This document shows positions 18,484 through 58,208 of a DNA stretch of 64,000 nucleotides, piece by piece (position 1 is the first letter of the stretch; the number at the start of each line of letters is the position of its first letter). The position numbers were made by a program, and so were the translations under genes. This DNA is from Aphrocallistes beatrix (taxonomy: Eukaryota; Porifera; Hexactinellida; Sceptrulophora; Aphrocallistidae), in the NCBI GenBank assembly GCA_963281255.1, contig OY725501.1, positions 2,023,674 to 2,087,673 of the forward strand, in the 5' to 3' direction. The notes under the pieces are model-generated. The model made no database searches. It saw nothing but the letters and a program-made list of their open reading frames with translations, and was not told the DNA's origin.

Positions 18484-19821
18484 CTACGGGCGTTCAATAA
18501 GTTCTAGGCCCTACCTTCTTATTATGTCTGTAGTGCAATTGAATCCAAGTATTTGCATTAATAATGAACCTTAGACGATTTTCTATTCAGATCTACTTCA
18601 TTTCAAAGCCTACTATATTTAGTTTCCAAATTATAGCCTATTCTATTTATCCTGTTTTGACCATCTTTGTTTTTTCCAACGAAAAATGGCATCCAATTTG
18701 AAACTCGAGCAACGTGCTTCTATCAAAATTCGCACGCTTCTTGGTATTGGTCCAAAAGACATTCTAATAGACTTTGAAATAGTTTATAGAGATGCTAGCC
18801 TTTCATATATCACTGTGAAGGAGTGGGCCAAACGCTTTCGTGAGGGACAGGAGTCGATAGACGATGACTATCGGAGCGGGCGCCCCAAATCCGCCGTCAC
18901 CAGTGGGAATACCTTGGAAATTGGATGGATGGTGGAAGAAGACCCCCATATCACTGTTGACGAGTTAGCTATGCATGTGGGGATTTCAACGGGAGCTGCT
19001 CATGCCATCCTTATCGATGAACTGAATGTTACGAAGGTTTGTTCCAGGTGGATCCCGCATTCACTCACAAAGGCCCAAAAAGATCGTCGGGTTATGTGTG
19101 CACAAAAGTTACTTTCCGAGTACCAGGATGCTGATCCACGAAGGTTATCTGAAATCATACCGGTGATGAGACATGGATACGATATAATGAACCACAATCC
19201 AAGGAAAGAAAAAAAGTTTGGGTGCTTAAGGGAGAGCGGCCTCCAGTTAACCCGAGGCCAGATTTCAGAGATCAGAAGGTCCTATACTCAATTTTCTTTG
19301 ATGCACATGGTCCAGTTGCCCAGATAATTATTCCCAAAGGAAGCACAATCACAGGGGACTTTTACGTCAATAGTTGCTTATCAGAGGTTGAAAAACATTA
19401 TTGGGAGCGGAGACCAAAGTCAGGTACACGGGGCCTGAGATTATTGCACGATAATGCACGGCCGCATAAGACAAAGCTGGTCAAGGAAGAATTGGATAGA
19501 ATGAGAGTCATTGAGCTAGATCATCCAGCCTACTCACCTGATCTAGCTCCCTGTGACTTCTGGCTCTTTGCAAAGTTAAAGAAAGACCTTGCAGGGAAAC
19601 ATTTTCAGAGCAGGATCGACCTAGGAAATGCTGTTTGGAGATCCCTAAAAGCCATTCCACCCGAAGACTATAAAAATGTATTTTTCGAATGGTTGACTCG
19701 TCTAGAACGTGTTGTAGATTGTAAGGGTGATTATTTCGAGAAAATGTGAAAATTATAGCTTGATATTCTGAATAGTTTCAAAATTATAGGGTAGGGCCGA
19801 GAACTTATTGAACACCCGTAG
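18484..19821 (+). mobile_element. mariner transposon, 1338 bp
   Basis: Terminal inverted repeats 18484-18515 and 19790-19821 are 32 bp with two mismatches (CTACGGGCGTTCAATAAGTT at the left end), flanked by TA (18482-18483, 19822-19823). Length and structure fit canonical mariners. It carries one transposase gene with a single frame break. Confidence 0.95.
18686..19749 (+). pseudogene. mariner transposase, one frameshift
   Basis: The ATG start gives MASNLKLEQRASIKIRTLLG. The N-terminal paired helix-turn-helix region follows (YITVKEWAKRFREGQ, RSGRPKSAV, HITVDELAMHVGIS). The catalytic domain lies in a second frame: TGDETWIRYNEPQ (first Asp, about 19165), LLHDNARPHK (second Asp, about 19449) and AYSPDLAPCDFWLF with the third Asp 34 residues after the second, the D34D spacing of mariners. 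The frame changes once between about 19140 and 19160, between SEYQDADPRRL and TGDETW. All three catalytic residues survive, so a one-base error or a recent mutation is the only obvious defect. Confidence 0.93.
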
Positions 19822-20258: not shown

Positions 20259-20597
20259 CATGCCCTACTACACATAAAAACTAACAGTAACTTTTATCTT
20301 TTTCTTTCATTATCATCAAATATTAATAAGGTATCAAAGCATCAGTTGTTAAAATTTTGATTCTTTATCAAATGATTGCACAAAAGGTTATAATTATGAC
20401 GAATTTAGCGATATTAAGTGTTTTTGATATGCTTTTCGCATATAACGGAGCTGTAAAGAGTTGATGCGAAGAATTTAGCTTTTAACGGAATGTTGCTCAT
20501 TCGATCGCTGCTATGGAAACGTATTTGTTCAGTTGGGGTCATATGTATATTGAAAAACGCAAAAAAAAGCATTCAAATTTGATTCTATTTGATAGCT
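20259..20597. mobile_element. P-type miniature element, left part
   Basis: Starts CATGCCCTACTACACATAAA with AACTAACAGTAACTT, close to the left terminus of the P-like transposon at 21797. Later CTATGGAAACGTATTTGTTCAG resembles the arm of the palindromic elements. It stops at the head of the family A copy at 20599, so the right half is missing. Confidence 0.6.
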
Positions 20598-20731
20598 AAC
20601 AAGTGCGCTTCGCTTGCTTGCGATGCACAGCTGGCAAACACTTTCTGTCCGCCGGAGGCGCCAAGCGGGCGCCTGGGGTCACATTGATTAATTGTAAGGG
20701 AGATTACATCGCTAAATATGTATGTCCTACT

Positions 20732-21662
20732 CATAGCCTACTCAAATAATGACACAGTAAATAAGCAAGGATGCGGTAATAGCCGAATGGATTAATACAC
20801 GATTAGCCTAATATAATTAACCTGTAGGATAGGCATTAAGAATGTATTTCCAGCATATATAAACATGGCATCGAAGTACATATATCCATTTGAAAAATTT
20901 GGATTAGTCATCATATCATTGCGCGACCGGTCATTCTAAGGACAATTTTAGCGATTTTTGTGTAGAACCAAGATTAGTACAAGTTGATTTGAAAAATTTA
21001 GAATTTTTCAATGGAATATTGTTACATTCCTGCGTTGCTATGGAAAAACATTTGGTCAGTTTGGGTCATTTCGTGCAAACTGTAGTAACTAGATCTTCAA
21101 ATTTGATCGTGTTTGGATTTTAAGAATGTGACCAAAACACTAAATTGTAGCATAACTCTATAGTCTGAGAATTTAGAAGTTTAAATTGTATAATTACCTA
21201 ATAGGAAGTATCAAATTGCCTATCAAATAGGATCAAATTTGAAGACCTAGTTCTTATAGTTTACAGGATATGGCTCAAACTGATCAAAATGCTTTACCAT
21301 AGCAAACGCAGGAATGTAACAACTTTCCATTGAAAAATTCTAACTTTTCAAATCAACTCGTACTAATCTTGGTTCTACACAAAAATCACACCTCAATACC
21401 ATTTAGAAATAGGGTAAAAAAACACCTTAAAACAGCAAAAATTGTCCTTAGAATGACCTGTTGTACAATGATATGATGACTAGTCGAAATTTTTCAAACG
21501 GATATATGTACTTTGATACCATGTTTATATATGCTGGTAATACTTTTTCAATGCCTATGCTGCATGGTTAACGCTTTAGGCTAATCGTGTATTTATCCAT
21601 TCGGCTACTACTTCATCCCTAGTCCATAATTTTCAGTCTACTGTGAGGCATTATTAGAGATG
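20732..21662. mobile_element. P-type palindromic miniature element, 931 bp
   Basis: Starts CATAGCCTACTC. The right end reads TTATTAGAGATG and lacks six bases relative to the copy at 51261. It is flanked by the 7-bp duplication TCCTACT (20725-20731, 21663-21669). The two halves are long inverted repeats, for example GAACCAAGATTAGTACAAG against its inverse near 21365. There is no coding capacity. It is inserted in a family A copy. Confidence 0.88.
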
Positions 21663-21796
21663 TCCTACTGTTAAATCGATATCACAAGAAAAATAACTAA
21701 ATTTGATAATTTATAAAATTTTGATGCGTAATGATGACGTCATAACTTGAGTGATGAGTAATCATTTTTTTAACATAGTTGCATTATATGTGAGAT

Positions 21797-24700
21797 CATA
21801 GCCTACTATACATAATGCCTAACAGTAACTTGTGGATTTTGGACCAGGGATGGGTTAGCCGATATGAATAAAATCTGCCTAAAATATCATCAATTGTTTG
21901 TATTTGATGTGAAACAGTTACGAATATGTAAAACTAAGCATATAAGTTGTTATTTTTTCCAGGGATATGTTTACAGATGAAAGTATTGAAGTGTTAATAA
22001 CAACACAGATTAGTTAAATTCACTAATAAACATATGTAAACATTTCGGAAAAAAAAGTTTTTACATTGGTATTTCGTTATTTTTTGTCTTCTCTTTGACT
22101 CTGCACTCCTTTATAACGCATCCAATACGTTTTCAATTTTTCTAGCTACCAATAATGCCCAACAACTGTTCTGCACCAGGTTGTAGGAGCAATTATGACC
22201 CAACCGACAGAATACCTATGTTCATAATGCCACAAAAGCCTGATGAACTGAGACGTGCTTGGTTACAAGCCCTACGCAGATATGATATAGACAAACTGAA
22301 GGTTGTGTATGTGTGCTCGAAACACTTTAGAGAGGAAGAAGTCGAAACCAGCCACAGAGTGCCCAATGGAGACGGAAGTTATCGAGAAATACCACGAAGT
22401 CGTCCTAAGATGAAAGATGGAGCTGTGCCCACGATACTACCAGGATGTCCTCCTTACTATTCAGCTCACTCTGCCACCAAACGCAGCCGTCTCTCTCTAG
22501 AAGACAAGAATGACGAACTTCTCTATCAAGCAGTTTCTCTAAGTCTGGAGTCAGAGTCGAAGGAAAAGGAGAAGTTCATGATTCAAAGTTTTCACGATTT
22601 ACAAGCTAAGTTACCCTTTATTTCAATTGCTAATACATGGTCCACATGGTATCCCGACGAAAATTCATTAATTTTTATGCGTCCTCGTATTGATAATCGT
22701 GAAATTCAAGTTAGTACGCACCTGTCAGTTGAATTTGACCTGTCCATAAAAGCATATCATAAGGGTGAACGTATTCCAAAATCTCATGAAACTCTATGTG
22801 ATATTCAACAACTTGAATCGATTCTAAATGATATTTCCATTCCACCATCCGCATGTACCACTTCTGAGAACATTTCCACTAATTCGGATAACGTCTCTCA
22901 TATTGCATCCACTGAAAGTCACATCCTACAGGTTATTGATCATATGTACGTCTCTGATGATGACTCGGTTCCTTGCCCAGAGGTTTCTAGACTCCAATTC
23001 GTTCTTTGCCAACTTCAAAACAGTCTTGTCCCAAAAACAGGCGGAAGTATAATGTATTGACGCAGATCTTATCTCTCAAAACACATCTCATTTCACCTGC
23101 AGCCTATCAGTATCTTCAGAGCATGTCTTGCATATCTCTTCCTCATTCCAATACATTGCAAAAGTTGTATTCATCCTTTGGGCTTGAAAAGGAGTTCTTC
23201 CCGTTCATCAAACAAGTGGCACAAAACTTATCTCTTGAGCAAAGGCATGTCATTATTCAAATGGATGAAATCCACGTGAAATCCGACATTTCTTATAAAG
23301 GAGGAAAATTGTTTGCTTCTAATCTCGATCCAGATAATCCTACCAAGACTGTTTTCGCTATCATGGTATCTAGTCTGTATAAGAAATGGTCTTGTATTGT
23401 CCGTCTACTCCCGTGTGCTTCTGTAACAGCTGAAAAATTATTCAACACAATCAAATCTTGTATTCATGATATTGAAGGTTGTGGCTTATCCGTTGAAATC
23501 ATCTCCACCGATAACTATCCTCTTAATGTGAAACTTTTCAAATTGTTTTCCCCTAATGGGAAACTGGAGACGCGAGTACCACACCCTTGTGATATGCACA
23601 GAAGTCTTTTCCTTACATTTGACTTTGTACATATTCTGAAAACTATTCGCAATAATTGGATAAATCAACAATGTGAAAATAAGCTCTTTACTTTCCCGGA
23701 TTTAAATTGTATTTCTATTGACCAATTCGCTCATCCATTGAAAAATGTCATGCTTCTTTTCGTGATATCCGTATACTATATAATTCTGAGAAAGACAGCT
23801 TAGCGAAACTTGCTCCACGTTTGACTTCTAAGTCTTGTTATCCATCAAATCTTGAACGTCAAAATGTTAAGTTAGTCCTGAAGATAGTTCATGAATCCAC
23901 AATTGCTGCTTTAGCTATCCAGAATGAGCAACGTTGTCTTGCATTTAAATCCAACACCTCTGATTTCGTTGGGATCCTCCAATCTCTATGGAAAATTTTC
24001 AATGTAAATAGGCCCTATAAACATATTCGTTTGAGAAACCCGTTGTCTAAACCATTAGTATTCAATGATGAGCGCTTTATCTTCCTGAATAGAATAGTCT
24101 ATTGGCTCAAGCTTGGCAGTCACTCCCTGAGAAAGGTGGCAAATTAAGTAAGCAGACATTTACCAGCATGAAACATGCATGTCTCGTGTTACCTCAAATA
24201 ACAAATTTTCTAACTGAGAACTGTGGCTTTTCGTATCTCTTAACTTCTTTCTTGCAGACAGACCCATTGGAACACCATTTTGGACTATATCATATGATGT
24301 CAGGAGCTAATTATCATGTTTCATACCTTCAGATCTTAGAATCAGAGCGCCGTCTGAAAGTGTCGAATATCCTAAGCTTGTTTTCCAGTCAGAATGTCAG
24401 TAGCACATCTTTGCAAGAGTTCATTCAATCATTTTCATCTTTGGATAGTGTTGATTCTAGCAGTGAGGTCGACCTAGATCCATTCTTGAGCGCTATATCA
24501 GATCTATCCTCTATCGAGTGTAACTTATAGGTGCTTCAGTCCTTAGCGTTTATCGCTGGTTATTCAGTGCATCAAATATTGAAATGTCGTCCAACATGTC
24601 GTGTATGTCGGGACGTCTTAACTATTGATAGAGATCTACTTGTCGATGAACCCGATACTATATCTCAATTCAAACTACTGGAACTCTCTGACCGTGGAGG

Positions 24701-25501
24701 TTTGAAGTATCCATCTGACGTTGTCCTAGAATCTATTGTTACTGCTTGGAAGATCTTTATTTTCATAGAAGATGATAGTAAACTAATGGAGATGTTTGTT
24801 AAAGTTCCATCTAGGAAAATCTTCGTTGATTTATCCATGAATGTCATATTAGATGTCGGTGATTGTCAATTATGGAGAGATCAATGCTCATATTGTAGTA
24901 TAAGCGGTTTCCATGTCCTTCAGAAGCTTTTATTCGTAGCTGGGAATTGTTTATTAGCTAATAAGGTAAAAAACTACAATTCATTGATTATTCTCAAAGG
25001 TTTTGAGAAGCGGAAGTTGAAAAATTTTTATTAATTACTTATTCCTATAGTATTATATGTTGATATTATTGTCTTTTATATTAGGGTAGAGAGTACAAGA
25101 TGTAGTTTTCGGCTGGAGAAAGGAAATCATGTATTATGGAGAGAAGTTCGATGCTGTGCTTGATGAGTCCTGATGAATGTTCCACTCCCTTTGCTGCTAG
25201 AATTCGTTTAGATAGACCTGTATTTGTTGTATTATGTGTGAAACTACACTTATAATATGTAATTTACATGTTTATTAAATTATTCTATCTCAGTTATAGT
25301 ATGTGTTTATTTAAGAAAGGGTCAGATAACTGAATTAACAGTGTGAGAATCGTTCCAAACTATTCACAATTCTTTAAACGGACCTAAACAACATTTTTCC
25401 ATGAATTTCCAAATGAATGTAATTTTTCGTTAATATCGGCTAACCCATCCCTGGTCCAAAATCCACAAGTTACTGTTAGGAATTATGTATAGTAGGCTAT
25501 G
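21797..25501 (+). mobile_element. THAP9/P-element-like transposon, 3705 bp
   Basis: Terminal inverted repeats 21797-21865 and 25433-25501 match at 68 of 69 positions, beginning CATAGCCTACTATACATAAT. A 7-bp duplication GTGAGAT flanks the element (21790-21796, 25502-25508), and the surrounding family A copy resumes exactly on both sides. It carries one transposase gene. P elements normally make 8-bp duplications; here seven bases match. Confidence 0.95.
22155..25034 (+). pseudogene. P-element/THAP9-like transposase, nearly intact
   Basis: The N-terminal THAP zinc finger starts MPNNCSAPGCRSNYD, with the C2-CH pair completed by VCSKHF and closing motif GAVPTILPG (about residues 1-100). The RNase-H-like catalytic domain follows: IIQMDEIHVKSD (first acidic site, about 23260), STDNYPLNVKLF (second, about 23507) and TDPLEHHFG (glutamate, about 24263). 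The C-terminus ends KNFY at 25034. Four lesions are present: one-base frame changes near 23037, 23745 and 24110, each cured by one extra A in or beside a short A run, and an in-frame TAG at 24528-24530. A CTAG acceptor-like site lies just before the ATG. The nearly identical terminal repeats argue for a young insertion, so some lesions may be assembly errors. Confidence 0.93.
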
Positions 25502-26239
25502 GTGAGATATATTAATATACATATTTATTAAATTTTCAGTCTTCTATCGCTTAAATTGGCTGAGTTATAGTCGAAAAACTGAAATTTCTAATTATAAAAA
25601 TGGTGACAATGACGTCATAATTCCATGATGAGCTGACATTTCCGTCTGAACTCAGAACTTAGTGGAGCCATAGCCAAAAGACTCACACTTGCCAAAAGTC
25701 AGCTTTCTACGCCTGACAGTTTCTTCAATCAATTCGTTACGGATATATATATATATACAAGCGCGCTTCGCTTGCTTGCGATGCGCGGCAGGCGGGAACT
25801 TTGTATCCGCCTGGGGTCACATTGATTAATTATAAGGGAGATAACATCTCTAAATATGTCTGACTTACTGTTAAAATCGATACCACGCGAAAAATGATCA
25901 AATTTGTCAATTTTTAAATTTTTGATGCGTAATGATGGTCATATTTTTAGAGTCCCTTTCTCAAGTTGAACAGAATGATGAATCATCATTTTTATAAAAG
26001 TTGAATTAGTGGTACGGCATAGCATGAAATTTATAACAATTGTGCATTTTGTGATAAAAGCACCCAGATTGGTGCACAGGTACATTGATATACTACTATG
26101 AACATTTTTGGATATTGGGCTAGCGGAAACAATGCCTGTCTGCCATGACAGCTGGCCCAAATTACCACGTTCGATAGTATTCGCAGGAATTGTCCCCTAT
26201 CAATAACTTCTTTTAATCACCCCAGATCATATTTTGATT

Positions 26240-26439
26240 NNNNNNNNNNNNNNNNNNNNNNNNNNNNNNNNNNNNNNNNNNNNNNNNNNNNNNNNNNNNN
26301 NNNNNNNNNNNNNNNNNNNNNNNNNNNNNNNNNNNNNNNNNNNNNNNNNNNNNNNNNNNNNNNNNNNNNNNNNNNNNNNNNNNNNNNNNNNNNNNNNNNN
26401 NNNNNNNNNNNNNNNNNNNNNNNNNNNNNNNNNNNNNNN
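26240..26439. other. assembly gap of 200 N
   Basis: Exactly 200 undetermined bases. It falls beside the left arm of a long inverted repeat, a structure that commonly breaks assemblies. Confidence 0.99.
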
Positions 26440-30483: not shown

Positions 30484-31551
30484 GGGGCCTTATTCTCAGA
30501 TCGACTTAAACTTAAACTTAACTTCAACTAAGTAAAAACTAAGTTGGTATTCACAGAACAAAACTAAGTAATACTTAGTTTTTACTTAGTTTTGATGAAT
30601 ACTTAGTATTTACTTAGTTTATTACTTAGTTTTTAACTTAAACAAGCGCGCTTCGCTAGCTTGCGCTGCGTGGCTAGCGGACACTTCGTGTCCGCCTGAG
30701 GCTCCCTTCAGTCGCCTGGAGGTGACATTGGTTAATTAAACGGGATATATGATATCATCTCTAAATATGTCCATCTTAGTTTTAAAATCGATATCACTCG
30801 AAAAAACACCAAATTTGTCAATTTGTAAAATTTTGATGAGTAATGATGACGTCATAGCAAAGTGATGAGTCATCATTTTTATAGTTGCATCATATGTGAG
30901 GTATGTTAGTATGCAGATTCTATTAAAATTTCAGCCTTCTATCTCCTATAATGGCTGAGTTATGCCCGAATAATTGTGTTGCTTAACTTTTAAAAATGTG
31001 ACAATGACGTCATAATTTCATGATGAGTCGACATTTTCGTCTGAGCTCAGAACTTACTGGAGCCATAGCCAAAAGACTCCCACATGCCAAAAATCAGCTT
31101 TCTGGGCCTGACAGTTTCTTCAATCAATTCGTTACAGATATATATATATATACACACAGATTAATCGAGTTTTAATAGTAAGGATTAATATATTTTTAAG
31201 TCGACTTCGAAGGTGATTTAACTCACAATTTTATTAAGAAAATATTATTTTAAATCCTTGCAAAGGGAAAGATTTGAAAATAAATGTAATATTATTTTTG
31301 GGAAGAACAATACGATCCAATTTTATCGCAATTAGAACTCTATTTATTTGTTGTAGTCACCATTAGCTGTAGTATGGTTTTACGACATCGGAATGTTGAA
31401 TTGAAATTGAAAGTTAATTCATTTTCAATTGAAATTGAAAATGAAAGTGGAGTCATTTCTATTTATACCTTTGACCCCACGTCAAATTAGGGATATTATT
31501 AAGTTAAGTTTAAGTTAAGTTTAAGTTAAGTCAATCTGAGAATAGGGCCCC
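30484..31551. mobile_element. GGGGCC-ended inverted-repeat element carrying family A
   Basis: Ends GGGGCCTTATTCTCAGATCG and its inverse ATCTGAGAATAGGGCCCC pair with few mismatches. Subterminal AACTTAAACTTAACTT arrays stand at both ends, and repeated TACTTAGTTT units fill 30530-30640. A complete family A copy lies inside at 30642-31185. The target duplication is unclear, so the superfamily is not assigned. Confidence 0.8.
30642..31185 (+). repeat. family A, full-length uninterrupted copy, 544 bp
   Basis: Runs from ACAAGCGCGCTTCGC to AATAGTAAGGAT. It has the GTGTCCGC hairpin region, TGACGTCA at about 30848 and 31004, the SCREEN-free block TTTCTTCAATCAATTCGTTA, a (TA)n tract and the tail ATTAATCGAGTTTTAATAG. 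There are no terminal inverted repeats and no obvious target duplication. Confidence 0.92.
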
Positions 31552-33153: not shown

Positions 33154-35785
33154 CACTCCGCTCTCGTTTATCCGAACCCCGATTAACCGAACTTCATTCT
33201 TGATTTAATCATTTTCCGAACATCATTTTATCCGTACAGTTCGGTTAATTTGTCAAGCTTAATTTTATCCGAACAAAAGTCTATTGTACTGTATATATTG
33301 GGCCACCATAACTTACGTATATTCACAGTACAATATATGTGATAATACGACAACCAATATAATTTCTTACTTATCTTTCGTTTATTCATCTCTTCATCTA
33401 GTATACTAAGAATATTTATGAGTACGTACCCACATCGTGCGCGAGACATATTATAGCTCATCTGTATTTTCTATACGTACGACATATGTACTTAGTTACG
33501 TATTTCCTTTGTAAATTTGTACTTATATTTTAACTGTTAGCTAAACCTATTGTTTTTATGGTTCAGGTTTCCCAAAAACGTAAGAGAAGGGTTCTGACTA
33601 TTGATGAAAAACTAGACATTTGTGAGATGATTAAAGAAGATTATTCTTATTCTGTTATTTGTCACAAGTATGGAATTGGAAAATCTACTGTGTCAGACAT
33701 TAAGAATGGAGAAGATAAAATACTTAGTTTCAAGGACAGGATGATAACATTCGATAAGAGAACTGCTAAATGTATGAAGCTTGGAAAGTTTATTGAATTG
33801 GATGAAGCTCTCTACATGTGGTTCAGGCAAGAAAGGGAAAAAGGATGTCCAGTTAGTGGGCCACTCTTAGCTGAAAAAGCGAACATTCTCTATAACTTAC
33901 TTTATCCAGAGAACTTAGTAACATTTACAGCTAGTTCCGGATATTTGACAAGATTCAAGAAGCGTTATCATATACGAAATTTATCTATAACAGGAGAGAA
34001 GTTATCTGCGGATATGGAATCTGCCGTGATTTTCGTCGATGAATTTAAACTTTTAACTACAGGCTATACTTCTGATCAGATTTGTAACTCGGATGAAACT
34101 GGCCTATATTATCGCACTATACCTGACAAGACTTTAGTATCTTGGTTTGAAAAATCAGCTGCAGGTTACAAACAAATCAAGGAACGCATCACAATCAATG
34201 TATGCTCAAATGCTAACGGTTCTATAAAATTCTTGTCATTGGGAAAGCTGCAAAACCACGTTGTTTCAAAAATATAGCAGTGAACTCGCTTCCTGTTGTA
34301 TTTAAACATCAGGCAAATGCTTGGATGAATTCAGAAATCTTTTTTAGCTGGTTTCACAATGAATTTGTACCTTTTATTCAGCTGGAACTGATTAATATGG
34401 GTCAAGAGGCGAAAGCATTATTGTTAATCGACAATTGCAGTGCTCACCCACCAGAAAATGTGCTAACCTCAGAAGATGGGAAAATCAAAGCTAAATTTCT
34501 TCCTCCGAATGTAACATCCTTAATTCAGCCGATGGATCAAGGTGTAATTGAGTACATAAAACGGAGGTACCGCAAAGGATTATTAAGAAGATTTGTTATT
34601 TAGTTATTTAAGATTTGTTATTTAGTACAGAAAAAGCTGATACAATTACTTTCCTTAAGTCAATTAATATTTTGCATGTAATAGAAAGAATTTCTACCGC
34701 TTGGAATGAGGTTCCCTGTTCCATTATCAAATCATCATGGAAGGAACTATTACAAACTCCCGATAACGAAATAATGGATAGTTTCATTCCGTCTACCCCC
34801 CTAAGTCCATCCTTGAATACTGATTTTATTAAGGATTTCCATAATTTAGGTTTCGCACTTCTCGAATCAGATATTATTTCATGGATGGAGGAAGATAGAT
34901 ATGATATCTGTCAACACCTCACTGAAATTGAGATTATAAAGGCGGTAACTGAATATTATAAGGAAACTGACAGTTTAAAAAATGACGAAGAAGGAAATAT
35001 CGTTGCCAATTTACATTTATCAGAGGAAGTGAGCAATGTTCAAGCCATGGATATGTTCGATAAATGTCTTGGTTGGTTACGTTTGCAGGCAGAAGCTACT
35101 CCATCAAATATCTCAGTCTTGCTATCATTGAAAGAGTTGGCAGCAAGCAAGATAAACTATGATGATTGTGATTCTGACTAATGCTCTTATTCATTCATAT
35201 ATTACTCACCATATTTATTCTACATAGTAATACTAGTATTTAAACTGACACTAATATTATTATTTTTCGATTTTTTGTAGAGACAAACTATGTATTGACA
35301 CTATTAATTTGAGGCACTATATGTACTGAGATTAATTTAACATTTTATATGCCTCCAATTTATAGTGCCACTTTAAATAAATTCAATTAATATACTGTGC
35401 TGTCGGCACAGTTTGTAATTTTATATTTTTTGCTCGCTTCAAAATATATAAATGTCTATTCAATTGGAGTGAACAGTATTTTGCCTGCGGAAAACATATG
35501 CCTGCACAATTTTAGTCCATGAAAAACAGTGAATAATTACAATATATTATACTATGTATCAAGTTCTATTTAGTGAGATCAAATTTCCTTCCTTAATACA
35601 AATATTACACTTGTGTTACGAGATTTCTGGTGCGAATTTCGACATTACCCGAAAATGGATTGATTGAGTTCGGATAAAAATGTACAACATTTTCCGAATT
35701 ATTCGGATAAAAACTTTATGCAACTTAACCGAACCACTTGAGGCATCTTATTAACCGAACGGTTCGGATAAACGAAAGCGGAGTG
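33154..35785 (+). mobile_element. pogo/Tigger-type transposon, 2632 bp
   Basis: Ends CACTCCGCTCTCGTTTATCC and inverse GGATAAACGAAAGCGGAGTG are flanked by TA (33152-33153, 35786-35787). Subterminal copies of TTATCCGAAC and TTAACCGAAC recur at both ends. It encodes one transposase. Confidence 0.93.
33558..35181 (+). pseudogene. Tigger/jerky-like transposase, two frame lesions
   Basis: From the ATG: a psq-type helix-turn-helix (RRVLTIDEKLDICEMIKEDY, YGIGKSTVSDIKNGED), then a CENP-B-type DNA-binding half (ALYMWFRQEREKGCPVSGPL, SSGYLTRFKKRYHIR). The DDE domain has NSDETGLYYR (first Asp, about 34098), LLIDNCSAHP (second, about 34428) and QPMDQGVIEY (third Asp 34 residues later, about 34530). The tail is acidic to 35181. 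One frame change lies near 34240, after FLSLGK. A 22-bp tandem duplication at 34588-34609 (unit AAGATTTGTTATTTAGTTAT plus TT) introduces a stop and shift. All catalytic residues are present. Confidence 0.92.
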
Positions 35786-36029: not shown

Positions 36030-36300
36030 GCCAACTTCTGCTCCAATTAAGATGGCACTGATTACGTTCCAGTGTTTGAAATGTTGAATCATTGGTCCAA
36101 GGAAATGCAAGATGAATGGCGAAGGTCTCTCCACAGAGATGATACATGGAAATTGGCGAGAGTATTCATCTGTGCGAGATATTTCTGTGACGAGGGTATA
36201 CTACTTCGCCTCAATATTCCCCAGGGTGACGGTACAGTGAAGAAAGATTCCAGAAAACCTGGTCTTGGAAAATGCCAACCCCATCAATCTTCTTAATTGT
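36030..36300 (+). pseudogene. isolated THAP-domain relic
   Basis: The frame reads DGTDYVPVFEMLNHWSKEMQ, then DEWRRSLHRDDTWKLARVFI, C-A-R-YF and IPQGDGTVKKDSRK. It aligns with the THAP domain at 22155 (PTDRIPMFIM, ELRRAWLQAL, VYVCSKHF, VPNGDGSYRE). The zinc-binding His is Tyr here, a stop replaces the Tyr before DGTD, and the AVPT motif is lost. No P-type catalytic domain follows, so it is an orphan fragment. Confidence 0.7.
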
Positions 36301-38193: not shown

Positions 38194-38700
38194 ACAAGCG
38201 CACATCGCTTGCTTGCCCTGCGGGGCATGCGGACACTTTATATCCACCGAGGCGCCCTTTGGGCGCCTGGGGTCACATTGATTAATTAAAAGGGAGATAG
38301 CATCTCTAAATACGCCTGGCCTAATTTTATAATCCATATCGCACGAAAAATCACAAAATTTGACAATTTTAAATTTTGATTGCAATGATGACGTCATAAC
38401 AAAGTGATTCGCATTAATTTTTGATGATAGTTGTATCACATGTAAATAATATTAATTGACACATTATTTTAAAATTTCGGCATTCTATTACTTAAAATGG
38501 CTGAGTTATGGTCGGAAAACTGAAATTTCTAATTATAAAAAAGGTGACAATGACTTCATAATTCCATGGTGAGTCGACATTTCGTCTGAGCTCAGAACTT
38601 AGTGGAGCCATAGCCAAGACTCCCCCTCCCATATGCCAAAAATCAGCTTTCTGTGACTGGCAGTTTCTTCAATCAATTCATTACAGATGTATATATATAT
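38194..38700 (+). repeat. family A, full copy lacking the tail
   Basis: Head ACAAGCGCACATCGCTTGC, a GC hairpin (GGCGCCCTTTGGGCGCC near 38250), one TGACGTCA (about 38389) with the second site mutated to TGACTTCA, TTTCTTCAATCAATTC and a (TA)n tract. It meets an opposite-strand copy through the (TA)n tract. Confidence 0.9.
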
Positions 38701-38702
38701 AT

Positions 38703-39076
38703 AAGACCAAAATGTCGACTCATCATGGAATTATGACGTCATTGTCACCTTTTTTAGAAGTAGAATTTTCAGTTTTTCGACTATAACTGAGCTATTTTAG
38801 GTGATTGAAGGCTTAAAATTTAATAGAATGTTTATATTAATATACCTCACATATGATGCAACTTTCATCCAAAAATGATGACACATCACTCTGTCATGAC
38901 GTCATCATTACGCATCAAATTTTGACATTTTTGTTGATTTTTCGAGTGATATCGATTTTAATAGTAAGACAGACATATTTAGAGATGTCATCTCCTTTAT
39001 TATTAATCAATGTGGCGCTCAAATGGCGCTTCCGGCAGACAGTGTCTGCCAGCACAAGCAAGAGAAGAGCGCTTGT
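38703..39076 (-). repeat. family A, minus-strand copy
   Basis: Inverse of the preceding repeat: two TGACGTCA sites (about 38738 and 38897) and a head ending at CTTGT 39076. With 38194-38700 it forms a tail-to-tail inverted pair centred on a (TA)n tract. Confidence 0.88.
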
Positions 39077-42424: not shown

Positions 42425-44310
42425 CAGAGTGGATCTGCAAATTCTGATTCGTTATCCTGGGACCGAGGATTCAAAGGTGGCAATCCGGACGGTGGGTGAG
42501 GTGTTTAATTGTATCAAGAATCGGATTTTCGGACATCGGGGGTAACTAACTTCACTGATATTTTGGTCTTGTTCGGAATTTCTTTTGGGTTTTAATGTAT
42601 TTTTTGGATTGATCCTGGACTATAAAAAGCTGTAACTAAATGTTCTGTTAAAAACCATATAAAACTTGCCATCCATGAACTCGAGAGTACAATTAAGCTT
42701 AATGACTCGTCAGACCTAGACTTAGGAGAATTACCTTTTAACAGTGAATCTTTGAGTATTTCATTCTACATTTTCTAGTTGGGCAACTTAGAAATTTGAT
42801 AAATTCTAAAATCGTCGCTATAACATCTTAAAGCAGGTGTTTTCATTAAAAATACATAGAATATCACCTGCTTGAAACCGACTTATTCAGTCATCTCATT
42901 GCTTAATCTTACCACATGAGAGAAATTTGATTAGCATAGAAAATACTCTGGGTATTGAAGGTGACTACTTTCAAATTCTAAGGGAAACTTCCAAATTTAG
43001 CCATAGTGAAGGCCATTTGATACTTCAAATGGATGAAGTTCACATCCGTAGTGATGCATCTTATATGGGAGGTAAAGTTTAGGACGCCATCGACAATCCA
43101 AGTGATCCCCGCAATAGGGTGATCTGGAAACATTTTTTTCCCTTGTATCCTTTATTATCGGCCAAAAGTTGCTACTATGTCTGTAAACAACGTTAGTATT
43201 AAATAAAACCTGATGACTATCCAACTACAGGTCGCGAACTTTTCTTAAAGTTTTGATAGAAATACCAAAATTCGGACGAAAGGTCCCTTTTCTCAAAATT
43301 GTTTCAAACAACTTTTGTGATCGATAATGATTACTCATAGTTGACTTGACATCATTAAATTGAAATGGTACAAATGGAAATTGACCTAATGGTAATATAA
43401 TGTGATCAATTGACCATGTTTCTATATTAGTGTTTAGAGCAATATAATTTTTACAATATTGCTTTCTCAAGATATTACTCAATTATATTGTCGTTTAATA
43501 TATGAGCACATGATAATCCTAGAAATAATAGCTTAACAATCAATAAATAAACTTTCAAATTGAATGTGGAGAATTCCATCCTGTTACTTAGTGTGTTTAG
43601 AATTTGACCATACTTTTCATCATGACCACAAACTGTTGATGAAACCTGCGAAACATATTGAACAATCCTTTCCACTGGCTGTGTATGACATGGGTACTGG
43701 TAAATATTATTGAGAGGAAGTTGAATAGCATTTAGGATATCCTGCTCACTCAAATTTTGTAATAGAGGAGGTGAAACATTTTATAAGAAAGCCTTGTTTT
43801 TTCTGTATGATTTTAATGACAAATTCCCTAGCTTTCTTTCGTTCCCGCTGGATCTTAGAACAAATCAAAGTAACTTCTGAAGTCAGAAGATTAAGATCGA
43901 TTAGTGCAGCATTGAGTAAGGCAACTACCTCTCGGTTGCTAGTTTTGAATCTATCGTCATACCTATCAAAAACTTGCAGTTGCTGCAAGCAGGGCCGGCG
44001 ACAGGGGGGGGTAGCTTGGGGTAAAACCTGGGGGCCCGTGGTAAAAGGGGGCCCGGGGTAAATAGGGGCCCCAGGTCGGCATGTAATAGTTTCTTTAGGA
44101 ATTAAGATGTCCATTGTAATTGTGTCTTGTATGTACATAATAAGCTTGTATCACAATATGAATTCCTTTGTTTCAGTTTTCACTAATATAATAATTGCTA
44201 TGATCAATATCACACTTAGCAAACAAAGGATTCTCAGCTCAACTTATTGAGAAATTCTATCATTTATTCTAATCTATTCTACCAAATATTATTTCACAAG
44301 CTTAATATCC

Positions 44311-45240: not shown

Positions 45241-47717
45241 TCACTGTCTAAAGTCACAGGTATTACAAAAATTTAATTCCTGTCAAAGAGAGTTAGGGTG
45301 ATGGAGGGGCCCGGCCAGAAATCTTACTAGAGGGCCCGTAAATTCTGTCGCCGGCCCTGGCTGCAAGTTTTTGATAGGTATGACGATTTTGAATAGACTG
45401 AATAGTGAGATTGCTGGGAGGTTCAAAAGGTGGATCGGAGAAATTATTTATTTCTTCACTGTCAATTGGGCCAATAACATCCCTAATTTCAAAATCTAGG
45501 CAAAATTTTTCTGGTTCTCATTTTCAGGATGAGCTTAAGATTCTATTTGTACGATCATGTAACTGTGCAGTGACTTCCATATCCACTCCTCCTATAACTT
45601 GTAATCTTTCCGTTTTTGTTTTTTTTCCCACAGAGGGGTATTTTAACATGACATTTGCATAGCTTTCTATCAATTGAGCTATCAAGGTATTTACAAGTTG
45701 AGATATCAAACAATTCGTCAAAATATCCAATTTGATTAAAGAATTACTCAGTATTTCTATTTGAGTGGTAGTGGAGACGGAAAACCAAATAATGTTTCAG
45801 TCTTACTACGCGTAATTAGAGCCATTTTGAAGAAAGCTATATTATATAATATCTACTCAAACGTACGCGCAAGTTATTTTATAGAAAGCATAAAATAGAA
45901 TAGAATATTGTTAAAGAAGCCAATATTGTAATAATTACATAGCTCTATGCATAAAAACACTAATATAGAAACATGGTATATTGATCACATTATAGTATTA
46001 CCAATGATATTTAGTAAAAAGTTAATTTTCATTTGTACCACTTCAATTTCATGATATTAAGTCAACTATGAGTAAATAATATCAATCACAACAGTTGTTT
46101 GAAACAATTTTGAGAAAAGGGAATTTTTCGTCCGAATTTTGGTATTTCTATCAAAACTTCAAGAAAAGTTCGAGACTTGTAGTTGGATAGTAATCAGGTT
46201 TTATTTTATACTAACGTTGTTTACAGACATAGTGGCAACTTATGGCAACCGATACTAAAGGATAAAAAGGAAAAAAATTTTTCAGATCACCCTACCCCAC
46301 AACTGTATTTTCAATGATGATTTCCGGTCTAATGAAAAAAATATCAACCATTGTTCGTTTAATTCCGTTTGGCACTTCCTCTGTGGTTGATTTATTTCTA
46401 AGTATAACTAAAGCAATATGTGAAATTGAGAGTTGCGATCTATTTGTTGAGGTTTTATGTACCGATAATTATCCCTTAAATGTCACTTTATTTATTTATT
46501 TTCACATGACGGGAAAGTCTTACAACTTCGAGTTGTACATCCACATAACCCATCTCAAAACCTTATTTTATTTTTTTGATATTGTTCTTATTATCAAATT
46601 AATTCGTAATATTTGGTTAAATTTAAAAGACTTCGAGAAAAATCATTAAGAGAGCCCCAAAATTAACACCGAAGTTATGTTGGCCATCTCATTTAATACG
46701 ACAAAATGTAAACTTGGCCCTTAAGATTTTTGGTGGAGCTGCGGGGCTCCCAAGTTTTTATAATGAGAATACAACATAAAACCATACAGTGAACTTCATA
46801 AATTTGACAAATAAAATTTGGAACATATTGGATATTATTTGGGTCGGAAAAGATATTCGCTTCAACAATCCAATTTTTGCCCTGCTTTACTTAAACGATC
46901 CGAGATTAAAATTTTTGGGCGACGCAGTAAAATGGCTGGATTGTTGGATATTCATTCCTACGTTGCGAGGGAAGCTTACCCCACAAACTTTCACTAGTTT
47001 TAAACCTACTTGAAGTGCTCGAATGCGGTTTAGAATATTTACTAACATCTCAAATACAAAATGACCCATTAGAACATCATTTCGACTTTTATCGTCAAAT
47101 GTCTGGTCCAAACTATTATATTTCTTATTGTTAAATTTTAGAGAGAGAACATCAATTATCCAATCTTAATAAATTCTTTTCGAATAAACAACAATCTGAT
47201 AATACTAGTAAATCCCTCAAAAATATTTCAAGTTTTGCAGAAGATTATAATGAAGAAATGTATTTATTAATTTACAGGGTTGATAAAAATCATGAATTTA
47301 TTTATAAAAATAAAAAAAACCGGATTTTTTTTGATTTTGCAATCCATTTCACATTTTGTCATATTATTTTGCTAATAAATCCACAAGACTGAGAATCAGA
47401 TAGTTTAATAGCATAATATCGATTTAATTTTGCTTGAATTTAGCATGTTTATGATTAATTGCAATTGGAAAATGTAGAAGAGAAAATTTAGTAAGAAGTT
47501 TTATATAGATAGATCGAGCATTATGTAGATAAATACAATCTTGGCCTCCTTATCGATTCCAAGTCTATTCCTTATGTTGGAATGTATACAGTCAAATGTT
47601 GAAATATCCGCCCAACTCCAGCGCTTGATGCCAGAGCTTAATAATTTAATTTTTGATTGTAAAATGCCATTGGTGAATATTGTTCACAATAATATGTGTG
47701 ATCATTATAATTCGAAT

Positions 47718-47895
47718 AGAGTCGAGTCTCGTTAATACGAATCAGGAAACCTTCAAAACTTGAACGTATTATCCGGAATTCGTATTACCCGAAGTTAATT
47801 TCATGCATTTGTACTGGCTGGGGAATCAAACCTTGTTCGCTTTAACCGGTATTTTACCTTATCCGTGTTCGTATTAGCGAGAGGCTACTTTACTT
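47718..47895. mobile_element. miniature element, pogo-like
   Basis: GAGTCTCGTTAATACGAATC on the left and GTTCGTATTAGCGAGAGGC on the right form imperfect inverted ends, with internal ATTCGTATTACCCGAAG and TTATCCG repeats. Boundaries are approximate. It lies inside the P relic. Confidence 0.6.
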
Positions 47896-48767
47896 TATTA
47901 TATGATTTAAATCAAACAACCCTGATTTATTAATTAATAGATTCTGATTTTGAGTTTGTTACAAATGAAATAAAAGTAATTGTTGACCCTGTATTTGATA
48001 ATTCATAGATTGAGTGCCTAAATTACGTGGGTATGCAATCTTTTCGTACCCTAAAAAATCCACAAATTGTCGAGACTGCGAGAATTTTTTTAACAACTAC
48101 CCAACATATTAAAGTTTATAATGGCACGGGATTTTCAATGATTGAATTACTTGATAGGGGTTCTCTTAAGTATCCATCTGACATTGTCGACCACCTGTCA
48201 TCATAATGTATGAAATATTTCTGAAAATCGATAAATATTCACATTTAAGTAAATATTTTATGAGGGATCCTGCCGTCGAAAATTGGTTGTTTGCACTTCT
48301 TGTTGTTAAAGAAAAATATTGTGAATTATGGAGGCAATGGTGTGTTTGTAAAGTCGCGAAATGGGAAATTCTTAAAAAGATTTATACTACTGTAGTAAAC
48401 TGCATTTTATCAAAAAAGGTTAGAAACTTTAATTCCATAGTAGTTGGCCGAGATAATAGCAAGCCTCAAAAATTTAGTCCCTAATTCTTGTATTATATTC
48501 TTCTAGATAATCCTTGACATGATATATTACTCCTGTATCTACAACTATTTGAATTAATTCTCTACTTTATCATTATCGAGGAACTCCACTAATTAGCAGC
48601 TACAAGTACAATAACATTTATTTAAGACGCATCGGAGTAATATTATACCTCTATCATCGTATTATCTCGCTTCTACTCGATTTTCGAATCACATTTCTTA
48701 CCAATTATACTTATTCTGTATGATTATTTATTAATTATGCTTATTATACGTTATATTATATACGTAC

Positions 48768-52637: not shown

Positions 52638-53772
52638 AATAGTTTCCCTTGATCACCAAAAATTCAAGAAATTTAATGAATTTAGTGCTCGCGCAAGGTA
52701 GGCTCCGCCTTGTGCAAATCTAGAATGGCTTTGTTCGGTTTGGGGCTTAAAGTTGAAAAAGGCGTACTTCTGATAGGCAAAAAACTAGCAAATTTGTTTT
52801 TGAGATATTTGGGGTGGTTTATATCAGCTAATAATCCATACTATTAAAACACGATTCATGAATATTTATTTATTGATATAAATATATATGAGTATATATA
52901 TATATATATGTGTGTGTGTGTGCAACGAATTGATTGAAGAAACAGCCAGGCGCAGAAATCTGATTTTTGGCATGCGGGAGTCTTTTGGCTATGGCTTCAC
53001 TAAGTTCTGAGTTCAGACGAAAATGTCGACTCATCATGGAATTATGACGTCATTGTCACCTTTTTATAATTAGAAATTTCAGTTTTTCGACCATAACTCA
53101 GCCATTTTAAGCGATAGAAGGCTGAAATTTTAATATAATGTGGATATAAATATATCTCGAAAATGATACAACTATCATCAAAAAATGATGACTAATCACT
53201 CTGTTATGACATCATCATTACTCATCAAAATTTAAAAAATTGACTAATTTGGTGATTTTTCGTGCGATATCGCTTATAACAGTGGACATAGGTATTTAGA
53301 GATGCTATCTCCCATATCAATAATCAATGGTGACTACAGGCTCCCAAATGGCGCCTCCGGTGGACACAAAGTGTCCGCCAGCCGCGCAGCGCAAGCAAGC
53401 GAAGCGCGCTTGTACATTTTAATGGGCTAAAATTATTTGTGCATGTTCGAAGAAATTGGTGGAAATAGTTGGGATTATTAATAATTTCAATACGAAAGTT
53501 GATCCCAACTGTTTCCGCCAATATCTCCGAACCAGTATATTTTTGCCATTAAAATGTATTATTGGCTGATATAAAACCACCCCAAATATCTCAAAAGTAA
53601 GTTGCTAGTTTTTTGCCTATCAGAAGTATGCCTTTTGCACCTTTAAGCCCCAAACCGAACAAATCCATTAAAATCTGCCAAGGTGGAGCTTACCTTGCCC
53701 AACCTCCAAATCAACTCTCAATTTCATGAAAACTTTATGGTAATATTTGGTGACCAAGTAAACTATTTGAAT
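52638..53772. mobile_element. inverted-repeat element enclosing a family A copy
   Basis: Arms of about 210 bp (52638-52850 and 53560-53772) are inverted copies, for example GGCAAAAAACTAGCAA on the left against TTGCTAGTTTTTTGCC region near 53600. A second nested stem lies at 53412-53560 (GGTGGAAATAGTTGGGAT and inverse). A minus-strand family A copy fills 52880-53412. Ends around ATAGTTTCCCTTGATCACC are approximate. Confidence 0.75.
52880..53412 (-). repeat. family A, minus-strand copy
   Basis: A (TA)n/(TG)n tract, GAATTGATTGAAGAAAC, TGACGTCA at about 53045 (the second site mutated to TGACATCA) and the GC-rich head GTCCGCCAGCCGCGCAGCGC, ending CTTGT at 53412. Confidence 0.92.
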
Positions 53773-53912: not shown

Positions 53913-54550
53913 TTAAATGTTAACAAATTCCTTTTTTCTATCGGGACGGTATACACCAACTACCACAGCATGATCACGTTCATATGGTTCTAATGTGAGT
54001 TGTTCTTGCGGTCGGATTAATTCTCGTTGAAGCTTGACCAATTCTTCAGCAAATACAGCTTCTGGTTGGGCAGTGCTATCTATACAATTCGCTTTAATAC
54101 TGATCACAACATGACCTCTGTTTTTTAAAAAATAATGTGCATTAATTCCGACTATTCTAGCTTGATCAGGTTGAGCAACATCTGCAAATATTGTATCAAC
54201 CATTGAAACTAACATTCTGTATTTTTGAGGATGACGAGCATCTTCAATAATTGGAATAATATTTGGACGCTTCTTAGCTACATTAAGAAGGTCACGGCCA
54301 GATCTTTGTGAGAATTCAACTCCATATACTAATCCTGTTGATCCTAAAACATCAGCAACATGAGAAATGGTGGTACCAGAAGCAGCACCCAAATATAACA
54401 CCTTTGAGCCTGGTGAAATATGAATTTTATCAATCCCACCGAGAATGGCTGCGCAAAGTTTACTACGAAAAGGGTTCCAAACGCGGTATTCCACTTTATC
54501 ATTAAATTCATTTTCTGCTGTTATTCTTTTTTCACCATAAACAGATTCAC
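53913..54550 (-). CDS. FBL: fibrillarin, 3' coding exon
   Basis: The exon encodes the methyltransferase domain of fibrillarin, the box C/D snoRNP enzyme that 2'-O-methylates pre-rRNA in the nucleolus. After the acceptor TTTTCTAG (ending at 54551) it begins with a split Gly codon (phase 1), then [24 protein letters not shown], the SAM-binding [74 protein letters not shown] and [14 protein letters not shown], ending EFVNI and a stop at 53913. No stops or frame breaks occur and the fold motifs are complete, so it is probably functional. The N-terminal Gly/Arg-rich exons were not found upstream to 64000. Genomic DNA upstream is repeat-filled, so a long intron is likely. Confidence 0.93.
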
Positions 54551-54796
54551 CTAGAAAATAGATAAAATTAACGTCACACTGCACCAAATAATGAGAATTC
54601 ATCAAGGTACAGATAATTTATTAATTAACTAAGTTCTTAATTCTTAGACTGGTCTATTACTCGAATTAAACTTTCGCACACATCGGGTTTCTGATCTCTA
54701 TAAATCAAGCTTCACCCCTACTTTACTTATGAAATAAATAACTTAATCGAACAACTCAAGAGCAGCTAACTCGATCCTTAATGTCAACCATATATA
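54551..54796 (-). other. start of fibrillarin intron
   Basis: Minus-strand sequence upstream of the acceptor. A reading frame continues through the acceptor to a methionine at 54605 but has no fibrillarin similarity, so it is intronic. Confidence 0.7.
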
Positions 54797-55285: not shown

Positions 55286-55818
55286 TATAACAAAAATATT
55301 TATAATTACAAGCGCGCTTCGCTTGCTTGCGCTGCGCGGCTGGCGGACACTTTGTGTCCGGCAGAGGCGCCCTTTGGGTACCTGGGGTCACATTGATTAA
55401 TTATAAGGGAAATAACATCTCTAAATACGTCTGTCCTACTGTTATAATCGATATCGCACGAAGAATCACCAAATTTATCAATTTTTAAAATTTTGATGAG
55501 TAATGATGACGTCATAACAAAGTGATGAGTAATCATTTTTTGATGATAGTTGCATCATATGTGAGGTATATTAGTTTACAGATTCTATTAAAATTTCAGC
55601 CTTCTATCTCCTATAATGGCTGAGTTATGCTCGAATAACTGTATCGCTTAACATTTAAAAATGTGACAATGACGTCATAATTCCATGATGAGTCGACATT
55701 TTCGTCTGAGCTCAGAACTTTGTGAAGCCATAGCCAAAAGACTCCCAAATGCCAAAAAATCAGCTTTCTCCGCCTGGCAGTTTCTTCAATCAATTCGTTA
55801 CAGATATATATATATATA

Positions 55819-57304: not shown

Positions 57305-58208
57305 ACAAGCGCACTTCGCTTGCTTGCGCTGCGCGGCTGGCGGATACTTTGTGTCCGCCAGAGGCGCCTTTGGGCACCTGGGGTCAAACTGATTAATTAT
57401 AAGTGGGATAACATCTCTAAATACGTCTGTCCTACTTTTATAATTGATATCGTACGAAAAATCACCAAATTTGTAAATCTTTTTAATTTTGATGGGTAAT
57501 GATAACGTCATAACAGAGTGATGAGTTAACATTTTTTGATGATAGTTGTATCGTATGTGAGATATATTAATAAACACATTCTATAATAATTTCAGGCTTG
57601 AATCGACTAAAATGACTGAGTTATAGTCGAAAAACTAAAAATTCCAACTATAAAAAAAGTGACAATGACGTTAAATTCCATAATGAGTGGACATTTTCGT
57701 CTGAGGTCAGAACTTGGAGTCATAGCCAAAAGACTCGAACATGCCAAAATCAGGATTCTGTTCCTGGCAGTTTCTTCAATCAATTCGTTATATATATATA
57801 TATATATATATACTATATCATAGGCGCCAAGTGTGGGTACGTGGGGGGTGCCGTGGTGCTGGGCATTGGAGTAGTGGATGAAACTGTGGTATGGCAGGAC
57901 TACACACAAACTATTAGGTTACAACTAAACCCCAAATTATGTTAATTGAGTCTAAATATATATCCCAATTATATTTTGCTTCCACTATAGTCCGAGATTT
58001 TCTTTTCCCTAGGTAAAAACAATATCTGTATATCGATATATGAGCATCTAAGATTTTTAAAAATTTCTGGGGGGCAAGCCCTCAGACCCCCGATTACCGT
58101 CGCTCGCTCTTGTAACCCCCAGGTTTTACTCTATTTTCAAAACTTGGCGCCTAGGGTATATATATACATATACTACGTACATATTAATCGAGTATTAATA
58201 GTAAGGAT
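57305..58208 (+). repeat. family A, full copy with an insertion in its (TA)n tract
   Basis: Head ACAAGCGCACTTCGCTTGC, the GTGTCCGC hairpin and body. The two CRE-like sites are mutated here (GATAACGTCA, TGACGTTA). The (TA)n tract at 57789 is followed by an insertion (57821-58153), then more TA and the tail ATTAATCGAGTATTAATAG to AGGAT. Confidence 0.9.
57821..58153. mobile_element. GGCGCC-ended insertion in family A
   Basis: Ends TAGGCGCCAAGT and ACTTGGCGCCTA are 12-bp inverse copies (the right one one base off the outer position). The interior has GGGGGGCAAGCCCTCAGACCCCC near 58070, like the G-run/C-run stem at 39630. Superfamily not assigned; the target duplication is obscured by TA repeats. 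Confidence 0.7.

Follow-up and report, generated by a model that had tools for sequence, protein, structure and literature searches.

A well-preserved, fairly young and dead copy of a P-superfamily transposon in a dispersed repeat of Aphrocallistes beatrix

The element and its insertion site

The window analysed here, a 64,000-nucleotide stretch of the Aphrocallistes beatrix genome (C15:2023674-2087673 in the assembly), contains a transposon of the P superfamily, the parts of which are listed in Table 1. The original prediction had been of a nearly complete P/THAP9-like transposon at precisely 21797-25501, with 69-bp terminal repeats differing at one position and an exact target duplication, and each of these points was borne out: the boundaries are exact, and the ends, the duplication, a THAP domain and the P-type D, D, E and DxxH residues were all found. 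The terminal inverted repeats expected of the P superfamily are present, agreeing at 68 of 69 positions, and a repeat finder reports the element ends as an inverted repeat of 88 nt with 90% identity. The duplication, GTGAGAT on both sides, is 7 bp rather than 8 bp long, which lies within the 7 or 8 bp of the superfamily but outside the canonical P/Pdre2 subgroup, where the duplication is 8 bp. In the genome searched (100,537,919 bases in 28 contigs), the 20-bp element end has 378 matches with two or fewer mismatches as against one for the reversed control, and thus the ends are not a chance pattern.

Table 1 Features of the transposon and its insertion site (window positions)
Feature	Position	Strand	Evidence or remark
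Host dispersed repeat, left part, target of insertion	21680..21789		Empty-site comparison
Target duplication GTGAGAT, left copy	21790..21796		Once in empty sites L085, L086
Whole transposon, P superfamily	21797..25501	+	3705 bp; structure, empty-site test
Left terminal inverted repeat, 69 bp	21797..21865	+	68/69 identical to right end
First open stretch: THAP zinc finger and linker, ATG at 22155	22155..23060	+	PF05485, E 2.5e-14
Second open stretch: RNase H-like N-part, two catalytic D and DxxH	23006..23803	+	PF21787, E 9.9e-16
Frame break 1 (23037), in five-A run	23033..23040		Absent from closest copy
Frame break 2 (23745), beside five-A run	23740..23748		Closest copy deleted here
Third stretch: GTP-binding insertion domain region (by position)	23746..24111	+	73% identity, relative residues 529-650
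Fourth stretch: catalytic E (24270), closes at in-frame TAG	24102..24530	+	Translation, alignment with relative
Frame break 3 (24110)	24106..24113		Absent from closest copy
In-frame TAG	24528..24530	+	Shared by 0/16 aligned relatives; closest copy deleted here
C-terminal stretch to last stop	24531..25034	+	Alignment with 958-aa relative reaches 25028
Right terminal inverted repeat, 69 bp	25433..25501	-	68/69 identical to left end
Target duplication GTGAGAT, right copy	25502..25508		Exact 7 bp
Host dispersed repeat, right part	25509..25640		Empty-site comparison

The insertion was examined by fusing both flanks with a single copy of the 7-mer and searching the genome with the resulting empty-site query. 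All 40 of the genome places scored, out of 4130 candidates for the host repeat, align across the junction with 87-90% identity. Within the DNA fetched, the junction is spanned by 21 of 38 matches (L084-L086 among them) with no second 7-mer in the part displayed, whilst the remaining 17 are partial, represent the filled site itself (counted twice, the window being also among the loci searched) or are repeat copies cut by other insertions. The single 7-mer reads GTGAGAT in L085 and L086 and GTGAGGT in L084. As the flanks match joined empty sites carrying one 7-mer, the element landed within one member of a dispersed repeat family, duplicating 7 bp, and the comparison supports a clean insertion with precise ends. 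The host repeat is ~250 bp long and has six further copies in the window, at 30792-31035, 38337-38581, 38711-38923, 53022-53269, 55452-55700 and 57448-57695.

The transposase and its lesions

Searches of five pieces of the element against Pfam matched two, identifying an N-terminal THAP-type C2CH finger in the transposase (PF05485, 54.2 bits against a cut-off of 23.9) and a P-type RNase H core (PF21787, 58.7 bits against 24.6), with none for the three later pieces. The first open stretch also matches the solved THAP1 and THAP2 domains. Acidic motifs are found as MDEI (D at 23264), STDN (D at 23510), FDFVH (D at 23621) and PLEHHFG (E at 24270). The whole can be followed against a relative elsewhere in the genome (L024, C15:1973462-1978992) with a 958-codon open frame (L024:1435-4308): the window copy aligns to it in four blocks covering residues 1-956 at 54-73% identity, the second open stretch being alignable from about 23030 to 23743. 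Similarity to the Drosophila P transposase (6p5a) is weak, with an E value of 5.5e-5 for residues 307-726 of the 958-residue relative and of 0.0038 for a window piece compared directly, across the first three acidic motifs. By way of the relative, the D, D, DxxH and E of the window copy align to 6p5a positions; P transposase numbering gives the catalytic residues as D230, D303 and E531, with D339 belonging to the [C/D](2)H motif (excerpts of PMC8230255). The THAP finger and three acidic catalytic motifs noted in the initial reading are thus both present.

The GTP-binding insertion domain is harder to recognise. Even in the 958-residue relative the match to PF21788 is weak (E 0.02, 15.7 bits, below the cut-off of 24.8), and the window piece 23821-24144 matched no Pfam family. 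A terminal intron after ~24966 was considered and dropped, since the alignment with the relative continues in one frame through 25028.

An autonomous element would possess an uninterrupted transposase frame; here, as first described, there are three frame breaks, near 23037, 23745 and 24110, and one in-frame TAG at 24528-24530. At 23037, 23 of 24 aligned relatives have extra bases (in one case a 43-base insertion) and one is equal in length, and at 24110 extra bases are seen in 24 of 26, these counts describing the site and not the net frame, as a few relatives have a second gap nearby. The stretch around 23745 is missing from the closest copy, and a copy on C7 has the same length as the window copy there. 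The suggestion that each break is cured by one A in or next to a run of A holds for 23037, which lies in such a run, and for 23745, which lies beside one, but not for 24110, where the additional base seen in the closest relative stands outside any A run.

Related copies in the genome

Searched loosely at the protein level, the genome yielded 155 matches, from 144 of 634 candidates scored; a DNA search yielded 82 aligned pieces, from 40 of 241 candidates scored. The genome holds further copies recognisable by their ends: there are 957 ends of the type CATAGCCTACTNTAYATAA in ~100 Mb, as against none for the reversed control, and the subfamily of the window copy itself has yielded one broken sibling, on C10. 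In a tree built from 46 copies, including C9:2640861, which is a mixture of two elements, the window copy groups with this C10 copy with a support of 1.0, and the pair adjoins ten more copies, most of them on long branches.

Elsewhere there are three near-identical pairs: C15:1973462-1978992 and C9:1746156-1751672 (99.3% over 3591 columns), C10:938540 and C17:2059451 (99.0%), and C6:2777837 and C6:2847187 (99.5%). The first of these includes L024, a member of a sister subfamily that lies ~70 kb upstream on the same contig as the window copy and has ends, a 7-bp duplication and the 958-codon open frame; its near twin on C9 carries a 14-base deletion. The 7-bp duplication recurs among these elements. 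It is exact in nine of 12 paired copies, the window copy included (of the other three, two have one mismatch in seven and one has three), and in ten of 13 further copies, 12 of which were chosen for ends ~1 kb apart and one of which is 3.6 kb, with two of the remaining three off at one position. Overall, 19 of 25 paired copies have an exact 7-bp duplication and none has one of 8 bp.

A family of ~1-kb non-autonomous miniatures (L071-L082), the copies of which are 89-98% alike, is apparently foldback-like, both halves matching one stretch in opposite directions. We considered whether these ~1.08-kb elements belong to the subfamily of the window copy. The 56-bp end of L071, however, agrees with those of C8:1166798 and C2:4455762 at 55 of 56 positions and with that of the element at 49 of 56, and the miniatures therefore belong to a sister subfamily.

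Four of the 25 paired copies lie inside the host repeat, all of them mid-repeat, compared with the 3.3% of the window that the repeat covers (binomial 0.008), although this count was made post hoc and the four include the window copy that prompted the question. Genome-wide, the ends that follow exact host-repeat motifs number 15 for the right-half motif and three for the left-half motif, as against 957 ends; not all of these are in the repeat, and the motif search is of low sensitivity, missing the window copy itself. The figures hint weakly at the host repeat being a preferred landing site.

Mode of decay

The sibling, C10:2070110-2073353, is 96-97% identical to the window copy in two large blocks and has deletions and indels of its own. 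No other place besides it and the window copy was found to match the non-coding DNA of the element on both the left (289 bp, 95%) and the right side (396 bp, 94%), each search having produced two candidates, both of which were scored. The breaks at 23037 and 24110 are absent from it, and the stretches around 23745 and 24528 are missing.

Over 2372 coding sites, the differences between the window copy and its sibling number 28 at first, 21 at second and 22 at third codon positions. With seven relatives as outgroups, 22 of these changes (11/8/3) fall on the window branch, a small number on which to base codon-position counts, and 44 (16/13/15) on the sibling branch, with five assigned to neither. 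Both branches show small indels as well as substitutions. In 13 other copies, by comparison, 49-61% of the differences from the window are at third codon positions; these are the copies with more than 1800 compared sites, which are mutually related and were all compared with the window copy. The share of third positions in the other copies implies that the transposase was long kept by selection, whereas the even spread between the window copy and its sibling gives no indication that the window copy has been under selection as a gene after the two split. Neutral decay of the window copy would account for this, and sequencing errors are therefore not needed. As judged from these comparisons, the copy looks like a case of real decay and not an intact jumper masked by sequencing errors, and with 22 substitutions on its own branch over 2372 coding sites it appears fairly young.

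Origin and state of the window copy

Taken together, these results make it very probable that the locus holds a full-length cut-and-paste transposon of the P superfamily that inserted with a 7-bp stagger into a dispersed repeat and has decayed neutrally since then. Judging by how P elements are known to transpose, a transposase of ~958 residues, translated from one uninterrupted frame, would have bound the element ends, its THAP finger would have contacted subterminal sites, and its D-D-E site would have cut the element and joined it to target DNA 7 bp apart. The present copy would no longer produce transposase, whilst a related copy might in principle still mobilise its intact ends in trans. 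This account is drawn from the assembly, in which error at any single lesion is possible.

It may be that the copy, though dead as a gene, is still mobile and is cut as a non-autonomous passenger by transposase from other copies. Its ends are intact, sister subfamilies have apparently been active recently, and in six relatives the terminal 56 bp differ from those of the element at two to five positions, compared with 26-30% in the adjoining non-coding DNA; the six were picked for having both figures, a seventh, C14:2016231, having been left out with values of 7/56 and 77/279. Such ends seem to have been kept for use. Against this, the copy's own subfamily has only one other member found, which is broken, and in the pair to which the 958-codon frame belongs the terminal 56 bp show only 73-79% identity to the ends of the window copy. 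We regard continued mobility as unlikely, without thinking it far-fetched.

Far less probable is that errors of sequencing or assembly account for the lesions and that the copy is intact and active. The original prediction had attributed the frame breaks to homopolymer errors, and the position of one break in an A run and another beside one, together with the intact ends and duplication, is what such an explanation would lead one to expect. That attribution is not upheld. The breaks at 23037 and 24110 are absent from the closest relative and the TAG from all 16 relatives aligned there, the TAG arose by a base substitution, the sibling has no A run at 24110, and the sibling is itself decaying by substitutions and small indels, with no excess of third positions among the differences between the two copies. 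In addition, the three near-identical pairs together show 49 substitutions and five indels, a single one of the five falling within a run of A, which speaks against an error-rich assembly. Domestication by the host, as for human THAP9, has a nearly whole THAP9-like reading frame as its sole point in favour and, given the intact ends and duplication, the broken frame and the lack of visible coding constraint, can be set aside almost entirely.

The window copy, then, is a well-preserved, fairly young, dead copy of a P-superfamily transposon and is new only as a member of that superfamily. The proposal that it could be active is not supported for this copy, the frame of which is broken: the signs of recent movement lie in sister subfamilies, in the form of the ~99% pairs, one with a 958-codon frame. 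A broader scenario, which we offer tentatively as one possibility, is that a 7-bp-duplicating branch of P elements radiated in this one animal genome into many subfamilies, some of which continue to jump, their enzymes mobilising a large pool of broken and miniature relatives that share matching ends and include the window copy. What looked temptingly like a 'nearly intact' transposon is, by the empty-site test and the codon-position counts, a real decaying insertion. For the study of P elements the genome is of more use than the copy, with its several THAP/P subfamilies, near-identical pairs and 957 ends, and is a place to look for natural P-type activity outside flies and fish.

Comparison with known P-type elements

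The ends of the Drosophila P element begin CAT, as do those of the element described here. The two also share a P-type RNase H domain with D, D, E and DxxH (6p5a), as well as a THAP finger and the presence of internally deleted relatives in the genome (excerpts of PMC7776569). They differ in that Drosophila P has an 8-bp duplication and 31-bp inverted ends (excerpts of PMC7776569), as against 7 bp and 69 bp here, and in that the relative L024, unlike Drosophila P, has one uninterrupted 958-codon frame. A THAP domain joined to a full-length P-type transposase is likewise shared with THAP9 and Pdre2. As here, Pdre2 has ends beginning CATA and occurs alongside internally deleted copies in its genome, but its ends are 13 bp long and its duplication 8 bp (excerpts of PMC10983969); human THAP9, unlike the element, has no inverted ends (excerpts of PMC7776569).

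With respect to the duplication, Galileo is the closer parallel. This element usually duplicates 7 bp and has a THAP domain, DDE and D(2)H residues and ends less diverged than the coding region, all as here (excerpts of PMC4168063), although its ends are long and foldback-like compared with 69 bp; the likeness is one of described features. In Anopheles gambiae, P elements and P-MITEs comprise many subfamilies and short non-autonomous families, as in the present genome (excerpts of PMC1562414), but have 8-bp duplications. More generally, expansions of THAP genes have been described in several animals (excerpts of PMC10027918).

Other sequences in the window and genome

An older relative of the ~1.08-kb miniatures, with matches of 67-82% and degenerate ends, lies upstream at ~20259-21654, ~140 bp from the element. 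Much older pieces of P-like transposase, perhaps from one split copy, are seen at 42813-43124 and 46296-48451 (29-55% identity to the 958-aa relative), and a lone THAP-like piece at 36042-36254. A gap of 200 N occupies 26240-26439, 738 bases past the element, and gaps of exactly 200 N are of the kind put in by scaffolding programs. A tRNA scan and an Rfam search across the window gave nothing. By eye, translations of 18686-19749, 33558-35181 and 53913-54605 point to pieces of mariner-like and pogo-like transposases and a fibrillarin-like host gene. Outside the window, two stretches 6 kb apart with ends of the window copy's subfamily type, L007 (C18:1633408) and L008 (C18:1627389), are identical over 2717 bp, reflecting either a recent local duplication or a doubling in the assembly.
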